NCBI GenBank assembly: GCA_021813805.1
Contig: JAKAJL010000002.1
Coordinates: 62,001 to 126,000, forward strand
Source: Pseudomonadota bacterium
GTDB taxonomy: Bacteria; Pseudomonadota; Alphaproteobacteria; Rhizobiales; Beijerinckiaceae
Direction: 5' to 3'
DNA: 64,000 nt
Below the pieces are notes generated by a model. It saw only the letters and a program-made list of their open reading frames with translations, was not told where the DNA came from and made no database searches. Of this stretch, positions 26,693 through 54,147 are shown piece after piece (position 1 is the stretch's first letter; the number at the start of each line of letters is the position of its first letter). The translations under genes were made by a program, and so were the position numbers.

Positions 26693-27670
26693 ATGACGCG
26701 ATCGATCAGCCCTTCGTCCTTGCCGAACGCTCGTCCCGTGCCGGGTCATGTCGCCCGCGCAACGGATTTCGGCGCCAATCGCGACAAGGCGTTGCCGCTG
26801 CCGCTCGAGTTTCTGATCAAGCCGCGCCAAACCTTGGACGTCCGTTTCGATTCCGCGACCAAGACAGTCTGGTGTTCGATGCGGCACGAGAACAGCGTGA
26901 GTTGGACTCTGCCCCTGCTGCGCGAGCTCAACACGCTCAACGGCGATATTCGCGCGCTTTACGCCGGCGCCAGTTTCGATGACCCCCCGATCAGGTTTTT
27001 CGTCGGCGGCTCCCTGCGTCCCGGCGTGTTCAACATGGGCGGGGACCTGTCCTTCTTCCTCGATCGCGTCCGGGCGCGGGACGCGGAGGGGCTGCGGGCT
27101 TACGCCTATGCCTGCGTCGAGGCGATCTACAACAATTACAATGGTTTCGATTCGCCGGTGGTGACCGTCGCCCTGCTGGAAGGCGACGCCTTGGGCGGGG
27201 GGCTGGAGGCGGCGCTGAGCTGCCAATATGTCATCGCCGAGCGCGGGGTCAATCTCGGCTTCCCCGAGGCGCTGTTCCACACTTTTCCCGGCATGGGCGC
27301 CTATAGCCTGGTGTCGCGGCGCCTCGACGCGTCACGCGCGGAAAAACTGATTCTGGGCGGGCGCGTATACAAGTCCGAGGATTTCCACGAGATGGGTCTG
27401 GTCGACGTCCTGGTTGAAAAGGGCGAGGGGCGCGCGCGCGTGGACGCCTTCATCGAAGAGAACTCCCGGCGCCATGGCTTGCTCGGGGCGATGGGCAAGG
27501 TGCGCCGCCGCGTCGCGCCGCTCACGCTGGGGGAGCTGCGGGACATCACCGACATCTGGGTCGCATCAGTGATGGGACTCGCGCCGATCAATCTGCGCAA
27601 GATGGAAATGCTGGCCTTGTCGCAGGACCGGCTGTTCAGGCAAACCGCGAGCGAGAGATTCGCGCCGTGA
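26693..27670 (+). CDS. RpfF-like DSF synthase (crotonase superfamily)
   Basis: A 325-residue crotonase-fold protein. RpfF makes cis-2-unsaturated fatty acid signals (DSF family) from acyl-ACP using two glutamates 20 residues apart (Glu141 and Glu161 in the Xanthomonas enzyme). Here Glu172 (GGGLEAALS) and Glu192 (GFPEALF) have the same spacing, and the RpfF-type motifs FNMGGDLSFF and HTFPGMGAYSL are present. The N-terminus carries about 30 extra residues. No rpfC/rpfG or RpfR-type receptor gene is adjacent. It is preceded by a 167-base AT-rich gap. The alternative is a generic enoyl-CoA hydratase, but the motif set favours DSF synthase. Confidence 0.8.
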   Translation: MTRSISPSSLPNARPVPGHVARATDFGANRDKALPLPLEFLIKPRQTLDVRFDSATKTVWCSMRHENSVSWTLPLLRELNTLNGDIRALYAGASFDDPPIRFFVGGSLRPGVFNMGGDLSFFLDRVRARDAEGLRAYAYACVEAIYNNYNGFDSPVVTVALLEGDALGGGLEAALSCQYVIAERGVNLGFPEALFHTFPGMGAYSLVSRRLDASRAEKLILGGRVYKSEDFHEMGLVDVLVEKGEGRARVDAFIEENSRRHGLLGAMGKVRRRVAPLTLGELRDITDIWVASVMGLAPINLRKMEMLALSQDRLFRQTASERFAP

Positions 27671-27731
27671 GGCTCATCGCTTGTTCCGGGTCGCCGACGT
27701 CTGGAGGGTAAAAGCCGGAGCCTTTCGCACG

Positions 27732-27768
27732 AAAAAGCCTTCCGCGACTGACCGGATCGCGGAAGGCT
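27732..27768 (-). terminator. Rho-independent terminator on minus
   Basis: AGCCTTCCGCGA (27736-27747), 9-base loop, TCGCGGAAGGCT (27757-27768): a perfect 12-bp stem. On the minus strand it runs into TTTTT (27736-27732), so it ends a minus transcript, supporting a small unit upstream of it. It could also serve the convergent RpfF-like gene. Confidence 0.8.
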
Positions 27769-27796
27769 CTGCGCGTGTCGCCCGAGAGGCTAGAAG

Positions 27797-27863
27797 GGCC
27801 CGGAGCGCGGGAGCGAGGAGGGAAGGAGGAAGGAGCTTTCCCCCGCTCCCGCGCGTCCGGGCC
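27797..27863 (-). ncRNA. Candidate 3' hairpin RNA with CCUCC-rich loop
   Basis: GGCCCGGAGCGCGGGAGCG (27797-27815) pairs with 27844-27863 (one bulged base), a stem of about 19 bp. Read on minus, the 28-base loop is pyrimidine-rich and carries repeated CUCC/CCUCC, the complement of Shine-Dalgarno sequences. It sits between a tiny ORF and a terminator. This layout resembles cuckoo/CcsR-type sRNAs of alphaproteobacteria, but homology is not shown. Confidence 0.4.
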
Positions 27864-27919
27864 GGGACGATCGGCGGCCCGGCGCCGCCCCCATACGGCG
27901 CCGGCGAACCCGGCAAAAT

Positions 27920-28003
27920 TTACCAGCAGATCGCAAGAATTCCCGCGATGAAAGCGAGGGCGGAGAAAACAGACGCGATTTCAGCCTTGAGCATGGTCGT
28001 CAT
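27920..28003 (-). CDS. Tiny single-helix membrane protein (27 aa)
   Basis: The frame reads MTTMLKAEIASVFSALAFIAGILAICW and then TAA: a short polar start followed by one membrane helix of about 18 residues. GGGGGG lies 6-12 bases before the ATG as a possible ribosome site. A minus-strand terminator downstream supports that this strand is transcribed. It is too small for most gene finders. I do not recognise a family; size and form are like regulatory subunits of membrane complexes, which is only an analogy. A second ATG (codon 4) is possible. Confidence 0.45.
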   Translation of the reverse strand: MTTMLKAEIASVFSALAFIAGILAICW

Positions 28004-28106
28004 GGTTGGCCCCCCACAAGATCACGATGTCATTCACTGCAAGACTTCAATCGCGCTATCCTCGATTTCGATCCTGCGATGATGAACAGAGTGTAAATTT
28101 GATCAC

Positions 28107-28118
28107 TTGTTCGAACAA
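28107..28118. promoter_or_regulatory. 12-base palindrome, possible operator
   Basis: TTGTTCGAACAA is a perfect palindrome, about 104 bases upstream of the 27-codon ORF (minus) and about 150 bases upstream of tetR (plus), so it may control either. It does not fit the alphaproteobacterial LexA pattern (GAAC-N7-GAAC or GTTC-N7-GTTC). Confidence 0.35.
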
Positions 28119-28269
28119 TTCCAAATGACGGGCAGTCGCGCCCGAACTCTGGGCATTCTTGCGATTTTTGCCCAAGCGGAAGGCGCCCGCGTGTTTCCCG
28201 TCGCGCAGGCGTTGAAACGCGGCGCGTCTCGGCGCTTTAATGGCGTGTGGAGTCGGGCAGGGGACGAGC

Positions 28270-28935
28270 ATGGGCGCCGAGGGCGGCTTTTGCAGGCGGC
28301 GCGCCGAAAAAGGGCGAAGCTATCATCACGGTCGATTGCGCGAGGCGCTGCTCGCGGCCGCCCGCGCCCTGATCTCCGAGCGCGGTCCAGCCGGTTTCAC
28401 TCTCGCGGAGGCCGCCAAAAGGGTCGGCGTCACCGGCGCCGCGCCCTATCGCCATTTCGCCGACCGCGACGCCCTGATCGCCGAACTGGCGAAGGACGGT
28501 TTCGGACATTTCAACGAGAAGCTGTCGCGCGCCTGGGACGGCGGCCGGCCCGACGCCGTTTCCGCTCTGCGCCGGCGCGGCGCGGCCTATCTCGCTTTCG
28601 CGCGGGAGGAGCCCGGCCTCTACAAGGCGATGTTCGGCGACGCCGGGGCGCTGGCGCGTCAAAGCGGCGACAGGGCCGGCCAGACCGCCTTCGACGATCT
28701 GCTGCGCACCACAGTCGCCGTGCTGCGCCAGTTTCATGCGCCGGAGCAGGGGGCCCGCGCGCTGGCGCTGCAGATCTGGGCGACGACCCATGGAATCGCC
28801 GACCTCATGCTTGCAGGCCATTTCGGCGAAAGCCTCGATCAGCCGCAGGCGCTGCTCGAAGACTCGGTCTCGGCGCTGATCGAGGGCGCTGTGCGCAAGG
28901 CTCTGGGCGTCGCCCCGATCATGCCGCCGCCGTGA
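28270..28935 (+). CDS. TetR-family regulator with WHG C-terminal domain
   Basis: A 221-residue repressor-type protein. The N-terminal HTH is typical: RSYHHGRLREALLAAARALI, GFTLAEAAKRVGVTGAAPYRHFADRDALIAELA. The C-terminal helices carry the WHG-like IWATTHGIADL segment of the TetR_C_33 group. I prefer the ATG at 28270, which has GGGGA upstream, over the in-frame ATG at 28240, which has none. Ligand and targets are unknown; a palindrome just downstream (28974-28998) is a candidate operator. Confidence 0.88.
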   Translation: MGAEGGFCRRRAEKGRSYHHGRLREALLAAARALISERGPAGFTLAEAAKRVGVTGAAPYRHFADRDALIAELAKDGFGHFNEKLSRAWDGGRPDAVSALRRRGAAYLAFAREEPGLYKAMFGDAGALARQSGDRAGQTAFDDLLRTTVAVLRQFHAPEQGARALALQIWATTHGIADLMLAGHFGESLDQPQALLEDSVSALIEGAVRKALGVAPIMPPP

Positions 28936-29755: not shown

Positions 29756-30748
29756 ATGGCGCGTCGCGGTTTATCTCTCTTCCTGCTCGTCGTCGGGCTC
29801 GCCGGCCTTGCCGGCTGCTCGAAATTCGGGAGCGCCCAGCGCCCGGCCTGGCGCAAGCAGGCCGAAGAAGCCTGTTTCGCCCGCCGTCTCGTCGCTCTCA
29901 GCCCCTATGTCCAGCCGGCGTCCCATGACATCGACGGCCCTTCGATATGCGGACTGACCCGGCCGCTGAAGGTGACGGCGCTGCAGAACGGCGCTGTGAT
30001 GTTCAACTCGACCCAGACGCTCGACTGTTCGATGGTGGCGGAGCTGAACGACTGGCTGGCCACGGTGGTCCAGCCCACGGCTCTGGCGCGCTTTGGCCAG
30101 AATGTCGTCGAGATCGACTCGATGGGCTCGTACAATTGCCGATCGATCAATCACCAGTTCGGGGCGCGGCTGTCCGAGCATTCCTTCGGCAACGCCATCG
30201 ACATCGGCGGCTATCGCCTCGCCGACGGCCGCAGGATTACCTATGTCCATGACTGGACCCGCGGCGATCCGCAGACCCAGGCCTTCCTGCGCGATCTCCA
30301 CGGCGGCGCCTGCGACCGATTCACCACCGTGCTGAGCCCCGGCGCCAATCCGTTCCATTACAATCACATGCACGTCGATTTGGCGATGCACGGCATGCGC
30401 TCGACCGGCCCGCGCCATGTCTGCCGTCCCGCGCCTCGGAACACGATCGCGCCCCAACCCCATGACAATCTGCCCGAGACGCCGGATTTCGACGACGATC
30501 TCGACATCGCCCAAGCCGGCGCGCCGCCCGCGCGCCCGGCTCTCGCGACCAGCGGCCAGAGCGTCGCGGTCGCCGCCGCGCCCGACATGATCCGCCGGCC
30601 GCCGCCGCGCCCGCCCCAGCCGCTGACCCTCCACGCCGAATTGCGCTCCGCCGACAACTTGCCGCCACGCCGCCAGCCGCGCGGCGCCATGCGCGAGGAC
30701 GGCGCCTATGCGCCCGAGGGCGCGCCGTCCGATTTCGATTTGCATTAG
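29756..30748 (+). CDS. Extensin-like lipoprotein (LAS-type peptidase fold)
   Basis: A 330-residue lipoprotein: signal peptide with lipobox LAGC (Cys21), then an Extensin_C-like domain. The metal-binding residues of the LAS (D-Ala-D-Ala carboxypeptidase VanY-like) fold are visible in SEHSFGNAIDIGGY (His and Asp) and NHMHVDL (His). Cysteines in GPSICGL, TLDCSM, YNCRS and GACDRF are conserved in the family. The C-terminus is a Pro/Arg-rich disordered tail. It probably acts on peptidoglycan in the periplasm. Confidence 0.88.
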   Translation: MARRGLSLFLLVVGLAGLAGCSKFGSAQRPAWRKQAEEACFARRLVALSPYVQPASHDIDGPSICGLTRPLKVTALQNGAVMFNSTQTLDCSMVAELNDWLATVVQPTALARFGQNVVEIDSMGSYNCRSINHQFGARLSEHSFGNAIDIGGYRLADGRRITYVHDWTRGDPQTQAFLRDLHGGACDRFTTVLSPGANPFHYNHMHVDLAMHGMRSTGPRHVCRPAPRNTIAPQPHDNLPETPDFDDDLDIAQAGAPPARPALATSGQSVAVAAAPDMIRRPPPRPPQPLTLHAELRSADNLPPRRQPRGAMREDGAYAPEGAPSDFDLH

Positions 30749-53618: not shown

Positions 53619-54147
53619 CAGTGGGGACAGGTCGAATCCAGCCGGCCGCCGGCGGGAGCCAGGGTTTGTCCATTTTTTGCCGACGCCGCCCGGTTGACGG
53701 CGCGCCGGGGCATGCGAGTCGGCGCCGCGACGCGTTACAACGTGATGTTTTGATCGGAGGGCGCGCCGATCGCCGGACAGCGCCGGGAAATTCGGGCTTC
53801 GATTTCGCGTGGGCATGGCGCCATGGCCCTGCGCGCGCTTTTCTTTTCGTAGCGCGACCGGCGCCCGCGCCCCGTCAGGACGATCCATCCTCGTCTGACA
53901 GGCGCCGGATTTTCATCGTTCGCTGGTTGCCGCGAAAAACCCGGCGCCGGGGGGCGGCGCCGGGTTTTCGCGAAGGGCGAGGGGGAGGAGTCGATGTCCG
54001 CGTCATTTGGGGGACTGGACGTTTCGCGGTCGGACGTTTTGCCTCCTTGGCGACAATCCAGTTTTGCCTTCGACCGGAGCGGGCGAACCTGCTTCGGCCG
54101 CGTGCTGACGGGCTGGCCCCTCGCCTTCGCCCTTCGGGCGCGGCGGT
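53619..54147. other. Convergent intergenic region with bidirectional terminator
   Basis: 529 bases between the ends of the MBL gene (plus) and gcrA (minus). Frames here lack protein features. The main item is the long hairpin at 53931-53972. The remainder holds short repeated motifs (GGACGTTTCGCGG and CGGACGTTTTG near 54017-54043), without clear meaning. Confidence 0.55.
53931..53972. terminator. Long bidirectional terminator
   Basis: CGCGAAAAACCCGGCGCC (53931-53948), loop, GGCGCCGGGTTTTCGCG (53956-53972): a 17-bp stem with one bulged A. The GC core is flanked by A-run and T-run, so it can end transcripts from both sides, the MBL gene on plus and gcrA on minus. Confidence 0.8.

Follow-up and report, generated by a model that had tools for sequence, protein, structure and literature searches.

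A single short transcript, encoded on the minus strand from about position 28083 to position 27732 of the DNA analyzed here, may fulfil two functions at once: as the mRNA of a 27-residue transmembrane microprotein and, through its 3' UTR, as an anti-Shine-Dalgarno (anti-SD) RNA. This reading, the best explanation of the locus, is held tentatively, at slightly under an even chance. The window, that is the whole stretch analyzed, spans 64,000 nucleotides of an alphaproteobacterial contig. Comparison of genomes establishes the gene, the selection acting on its peptide, the maintenance of the hairpin with its loop motif, and a promoter block and a terminator specific to this locus. Transcription of the unit, release of a small RNA, its pairing in trans and its targets are proposed.

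In mechanistic terms, the transcript would be translated into a microprotein with a single membrane helix. The hairpin of its 3' UTR would display in an exposed apical loop the pentanucleotide CCUCC, the core of the anti-SD sequence of 16S rRNA as described in PMC10783764, and a terminator would follow. Either alone or within the mRNA, the 3' UTR would pair through this loop with the SD sequences of other mRNAs and would lower their translation or their stability, as reported for NfeR1 of the ar14 family.

The organism was taken as a member of the genus Rhodoblastus and was compared within a set of 11 Rhodoblastus genomes, each standing for one species (G000 to G010), in which G000 designates the species of the window's own locus. 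Six of these species (G000, G007, G002, G003, G010 and G006) share the CCUCC hairpin and are called below the CCUCC group.

A conserved microprotein gene

The 27-codon minus-strand ORF reported in the initial annotation is present at 27920-28003, reads MTTMLKAEIASVFSALAFIAGILAICW and is preceded by the SD run GGGGGG (28010-28015, minus strand). It was recovered in all 11 Rhodoblastus genomes, each of which has exactly 27 codons at this locus. Purifying selection on the ORF is marked (pN/pS 0.19, Fisher p 6e-8, in five independent species pairs), with a weaker constraint in the pairs of G000 with other species (pN/pS 0.45 to 0.76). Hydropathy predicts a single membrane helix. By this conservation, this selection and the order-wide family described below, the ORF is a real gene. 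The statement that it does not encode a DUF1127 protein was likewise correct, the sole Pfam match of the peptide being PF02038 at E 0.5, far below the cut-off.

What the initial annotation missed is that, judging from profile searches, this ORF belongs to a microprotein family distributed throughout the order. At least two of the weak microprotein matches (E 6e-4 to 0.1), those of G026 and G035, adjoin the same TetR gene and represent relatives; the profile was widened with relatives found next to the TetR gene in other genera. It then detected the microprotein in 58 of the 298 genomes of the family at E <= 0.01 and, at E <= 1e-3, in 97 of the 397 genomes of the order, representing 40 of 142 genera. 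A class-wide draw of 289 genomes gave only two matches, both in the window's own family and none outside the order. The alignment A7 comprises 24 members, has no internal gaps and displays a hydrophobic helix; two members of 25 residues from the genus g8, which require a two-residue gap in alignment A6, were left out of it. The window peptide fits the 27-position profile, with its hydrophobic helix and the A15 that is invariant in both alignments, and it scores E 1.6e-9 against the A7 profile, of which it is itself a row.

None of the 24 A7 peptides matches Pfam, none of the eight peptides tested against NCBIfam exceeds a cut-off, and a search of article texts for the peptide motifs returned one unrelated paper. 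These peptides of about 27 residues are thus regarded, from their sequences, as a Rhizobiales-wide transmembrane family that is undescribed in the sense of having no match in Pfam, NCBIfam or text searches. The best PDB match, to the FXYD gamma chains of the Na/K-ATPase (E 0.22), was attributed to a fortuitous resemblance between hydrophobic helices. Searches of plasmids with the DNA of the locus and with one family peptide returned no match. A comparable small protein, SEP6 of Sinorhizobium meliloti, is described in PMC10117765 as shorter than 30 residues, with a predicted transmembrane helix and conservation in Hyphomicrobiales, and as recovered for the most part in the pellet, the fraction that contains membranes and ribosomes. 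The likeness concerns size, predicted helix and conservation in the order, and was drawn from the description of SEP6 rather than from its sequence.

The genomic settings of the family were examined at 57 microprotein loci, several of which come from close relatives, so that not all of them are independent; L034 is outside the locus counts, and L101 is counted among 12 further loci. A TetR gene, always divergent, lies within 1.5 kb at 24 of the 57 loci. A Tim44-domain gene lies within the same distance at ten, on the same strand in seven of these; in Rhodoblastus, a Tim44-domain gene was found at another place, in 8 of the 11 genomes. Second copies of the microprotein gene occur elsewhere in four Rhodoblastus genomes (L049 to L052, from G001, G005, G004 and G008), where the neighbor is an OprB porin gene or the copy is flanked by DUF2325 and heavy-metal P-type ATPase genes. 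The ATPase gene adjoins two of these paralogues of the microprotein gene, an observation to be set beside the FXYD match mentioned above. Elsewhere in the order, in families other than that of the window, it is found near a DUF2336 or an extensin-like gene (L119 and L128; L122 and L133).

Gene neighborhood, promoter and terminator

The gene is flanked by a divergent TetR-family regulator (28240-28935, plus strand; PF00440/PF13305) and by a convergent crotonase family protein of the PRK08788 type, related to RpfF (26693-27670, plus strand). The latter scores 313 bits with NCBIfam PRK08788.1 (cut-off 177) and 193 bits with the RpfF model, under the cut-off of 550 of that model. Among the loci listed, the gene order of the genus is RecQ, crotonase, microprotein, TetR, DUF2852 and extensin-like gene, the last being located at 29756-30748 in the window. 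Crotonase and RecQ are present at all 11 Rhodoblastus microprotein loci, and at each of the 11 it is the RpfF-related crotonase that adjoins the microprotein gene. At the G010 locus (L048), neither TetR nor DUF2852 was detected between the extensin-like and microprotein genes, and the promoter block is retained; the contig of G004 stops too soon to show whether TetR is there.

Upstream of the ORF, a conserved block, CATTTGGAATTGTT (28127-28114) followed by a C (28113-28127 in all, minus strand), includes the proposed -35 element TTGTTC (28118-28113). The proposed -10 element TACACT (28090-28095, minus strand) lies 17 nt past it, so that transcription would start near 28083. All six species of the CCUCC group carry CATTTGGAATTGTT unchanged and also present TACAMT after TTGTTN with a 17-nt spacer, the spacers having been counted by eye. 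With at most two mismatches, the longer promoter pattern occurs once per genome, at this locus only, in 6 of the 11 genomes. The possibility that this block is a TetR operator was rejected. As G010 keeps the block without the TetR gene, it was assigned to the microprotein gene. An EcfG-like promoter perceived in the other Rhodoblastus clade was seen by eye only and was dropped.

The intrinsic terminator placed after the hairpin by the initial annotation is found at 27732-27767 (minus strand) as GCCUUCCGCGAUCCGGUCAGUCGCGGAAGGC UUUUU, with arms at 27767-27737 followed by the U-run. Its arms are conserved in relatives, where pairs are changed on one or both sides. With up to three mismatches it is a single-copy sequence in 5 of the 11 genomes, and a diverged copy exists in G010. 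Neither of these two elements was picked up by a simple scan for promoters and terminators, and both assignments therefore rest on conservation.

An exposed CCUCC loop restricted to one lineage

The anti-SD hairpin, supported by folding and by the arm-pairing test described below, extends over 27797-27863 (minus strand). Its minimum-energy fold comprises 25 pairs closed by a 13-nt apical loop, AGCUCCUUCCUCC (27825-27837). The stem of about 19 bp with a 28-nt loop rich in CUCC and CCUCC, as first annotated, is obtained when the six inner pairs GGGGAA/UUCCCU are left out of this fold. CCUCC is present twice, in the apical loop at 27829-27825 (mean unpaired probability 0.82) and at 27821-27817 (0.41). 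The 336-nt transcript region folds with z = -5.4, a stability reached by none of 100 shuffles, and the hairpin alone with z = -3.75 (1 of 300 shuffles as good). A scan for unpaired CCUCC gave the background of the window: both strands together have 134 CCUCC sites, of which 13 are in an apical loop, 6 of these 13 with 12 bp or more in the stem. The hairpin studied here is one of these six, and the one of lowest energy. No Rfam model gave a gathering match in the window; a permissive search of 27600-28200 gave 21 matches, mostly to microRNA models and all far under their cut-offs, which were taken as chance.

In each of the six CCUCC group species, CCUCC is located 154-174 nt past the ATG, with a mean unpaired probability of 0.82-1.0. 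The five other congeners have no CCUCC hairpin loop: in G009 the hairpin is shorter and its loop contains CUCC, and no CCUCC hairpin was found in G001, G004, G005 and G008. In a five-protein tree, G009 is placed next to the six group species if the root is set at the midpoint. A CCUCC apical loop on a stem of at least 8 pairs was detected at 6 of the 57 microprotein loci, which are exactly those of the six group species, and 13 of the 57 contain CCUCC at any position within 200 nt downstream of the stop codon. None of the 12 further loci, L101 included, has such a loop, which makes 0 of the 63 microprotein loci examined other than the six Rhodoblastus loci. The microprotein is found in all 11 species and throughout the order, and the loop in only 6 of the 11 and nowhere among the 63; by this distribution, the exposed CCUCC loop is younger than the microprotein gene.

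Among the group species, the stem sequence has turned over and the unpaired CCUCC has been kept at the same place. As the stem sequences are too divergent for MAFFT to align them, the pairing between 5' and 3' arms was tested directly. When the arms of seven species were reassigned among one another, the summed pairing of own arms was the best of all 5040 arrangements, and when each lineage was represented by a single species it again came first, among 120. Arm by arm, the result is mixed: only 2 of 7 species have a 5' arm that pairs best with its native 3' arm, and 4 of 7 a 3' arm that pairs best with its native 5' arm; in G006 the 3' arm is C-rich and binds several foreign arms well. The z-scores of the hairpin are -3.75 for G000, -3.5 for G007, -1.4 for G002, -2.0 for G003, -3.6 for G010, -1.4 for G006 and -2.0 for G009, the stability of the stem being only weakly above that of shuffles in G002 and G006.

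A proposed outer closing helix (27777-27871, minus strand), assigned by comparison, would join the arms 27871-27864 (AUCGUCCC) and 27783-27777 (GGGCGAC). In a hand alignment of the seven species, three of its seven pairs have changed on both sides, one of these three differing only in G009, and a single cell of 48 is nonstandard. Its register appears in the unconstrained folds of G007, G003 (MEA fold), G006 and G009 (4 of 7) and is absent from those of G000, G002 and G010; in G000 one U is bulged and the first pair is lost. Covariation of the stem, which the initial annotation had proposed as a check, is thus borne out for the most part. Own arms win as a set, three outer-helix pairs change on both sides and the CCUCC loop is kept, but RNAalifold on the MAFFT alignment recovered the terminator together with a short helix that does not correspond to the inner stem, and did not recover the inner stem itself.

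The exact nonamer CCUCCUCCC, the anti-SD motif of the ar14 RNAs, is absent from the 11 loci of the genus (185-200 nt after the stop codon). A 9-mer with one mismatch to it is present in all six group species, that is in 6 of the 11 species of the genus. Exposure not being required, such a 9-mer arises in 5.8% of shuffles for G002, 6.4% for G010, 3.8% for G006 and 20% for G000. When the 3' UTRs of G002, G010 and G006 are shuffled, CCUCC alone turns up in 26 to 39% of cases, and the case therefore rests on its place and its exposure. Considered together, these comparisons indicate that the hairpin and its loop motif are maintained.

Possible roles of the hairpin

The transcript could be the mRNA of the microprotein and nothing more, the hairpin serving as a 3' stabilizer against exonucleases or as a part of the termination region, and the pyrimidine loop being a by-product. 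A 3' stem of this kind needs no particular loop sequence, and the stem sequences do turn over freely here; in addition, G001, G004, G005 and G008 possess a strong hairpin directly after the ORF, followed by a T-run in three of them, without a CCUCC hairpin. This explanation, however, has to accommodate a terminator that is already there, so that transcription can end without a further hairpin, and a CCUCC that stays exposed at the same place in six of six species despite the change of the stem. It is judged unlikely, even if it deserves serious consideration.

A second alternative, clearly improbable, is an action in cis, in which the loop would bind the SD of the ORF in the same transcript and limit the translation of this ORF, or would be the remnant of a leader masking the SD of a following gene. 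Each of the mRNAs has indeed a purine-rich SD that can pair with CCUCC: GGGGGG in G000 and G007, GGGGG in G010, and GGAGG in G002, G003 and G006. The leader variant finds its model in the related genera g8 and g17, where, at L094, L095, L099 and L101, a Tim44-domain gene comes after the microprotein ORF and has the SD GGAGGAG, able to pair with a CUCC strand that lies upstream of this SD and past the ORF. In the case of L101 (G144, g17), the strand has the exact nonamer CCUCCUCCC and is almost fully paired, with an unpaired probability of at most 0.2 at every base. The arrangement of g8 and g17 is possibly a cis-acting leader, and such a CUCC strand could possibly be the source of the Rhodoblastus motif, which is only an idea. 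In the Rhodoblastus group, however, the hairpin is followed by a terminator, with no same-strand gene downstream before the convergent crotonase, and the loop stays free in the folded mRNA. Moreover, the loop stays CCUCC, without a matching change, in the three of the six species in which the SD of the ORF is GGGGGG or GGGGG, and in every group species except G006, that is in five of six, it pairs better with a generic GGAGG than with the SD of its own mRNA.

Since the loop shows no adaptation to the SD of its own mRNA, action in trans on the SDs of other messages, or their titration, is the first choice and the most likely of the regulatory readings, cis control coming second. As for its origin, it is conceivable, on a somewhat more doubtful footing than the dual function itself, that the anti-SD RNA was gained independently in one Rhodoblastus lineage, perhaps from an SD-masking leader, by convergence with the known anti-SD RNAs, and that peptide and RNA take part in one response.

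Relation to the cuckoo/CcsR and ar14 RNAs

The CcsR RNAs carry an anti-SD loop. The features of the cuckoo/CcsR family used for comparison were drawn from PMC10746234, PMC10253847, PMC8625941 and PMC8307010. In Rhodobacter sphaeroides, according to PMC10253847 and PMC8625941, CcsR1-4 derive from the 3' UTR of ccaF1 (RSP_6037) and end with a Rho-independent terminator; ccaF1 encodes a 71-aa RNA-binding protein of the DUF1127 type and is described in PMC10253847 with an RpoHI/RpoHII promoter and four sRNAs. The present locus shares with this system a hairpin with a divergent stem, a Rho-independent terminator and a position 3' of a small-protein ORF. It differs in its 27-aa membrane peptide, in having one hairpin instead of an array, and in its sigma-70-like block TTGTTN-N17-TACAMT. 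At E <= 0.001, DUF1127 (PF06568) has no match in any of the 11 Rhodoblastus genomes; among the 14 control genomes, that of E. coli matches.

Concerning the ar14 RNAs, PMC10746234 describes CCUCCUCCC anti-SD motifs lying in unpaired regions on stems that are very different, and presents the Sinorhizobium member NfeR1 (family RF02344) as silencing mRNA at the translation start. The unpaired anti-SD motif and the strongly differing stem sequences are common to both cases, whereas NfeR1/ar14 has three hairpins and the exact nonamer and the locus studied here has one hairpin and a nonamer one base off. RF02344 gave no match to this locus at E <= 0.1, nor any match over its cut-off anywhere in the 11 Rhodoblastus genomes.

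A separate ar14-like RNA is probably encoded at another Rhodoblastus locus, to judge from covariance-model matches. Sub-threshold matches to RF02344 were obtained in all 11 Rhodoblastus genomes, and one below the cut-off in 1 of the 14 control genomes. The match at L156:1501-1598 (G000 contig C23:104442-104539) and those of its orthologues L155 and L157 to L161 score 31.7-38.2 bits (cut-off 58.8). Seven of the eight ar14-like loci fetched share flanking ORFs and end in a terminator hairpin whose loop is C-rich around CCUCCCC. The L156 RNA and its orthologues are perhaps an undescribed relative of ar14. Within the window, a weak RF02344 match of 29.8 bits at 53932-54035 (minus strand) covers CUCCUCCCCCUC and is followed by a strong hairpin and a U-run.

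The cuckoo/CcsR likeness suggested by the initial annotation therefore holds for the architecture and not for family membership, since no DUF1127 gene was found in the 11 genomes, the exact CCUCCUCCC is lacking and RF02344 does not match, in addition to there being one hairpin only. That the locus is a true diverged member of this family (CIN1), in which another small ORF has replaced the DUF1127 gene, would account for the identical order of parts (small-protein ORF, CCUCC-loop hairpin, terminator) and for the 9-mer one base off CCUCCUCCC in all six species, but is most improbable given that DUF1127 was detected in none of the 11 genomes, an ar14 match that is missing here while an ar14-like RNA is found elsewhere in the genus, and a small ORF that is order-wide with an exposed CCUCC hairpin confined to one lineage, which means that the ORF has not taken the place of DUF1127 within an ancient locus. 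The RNA may at most work like the cuckoo/CcsR RNAs, and its filing as a member is not supported.

Significance

If the dual-function reading is true, the mRNAs of small proteins would be able to gain an anti-SD RNA independently of DUF1127, and the association of a small ORF with an anti-SD hairpin would be a recurring design rather than the mark of a single family. A length of about 27 residues is below the size limit of common gene callers, and a family of this size, present in 40 of the 142 sampled genera of the order, brings membrane microproteins to light.
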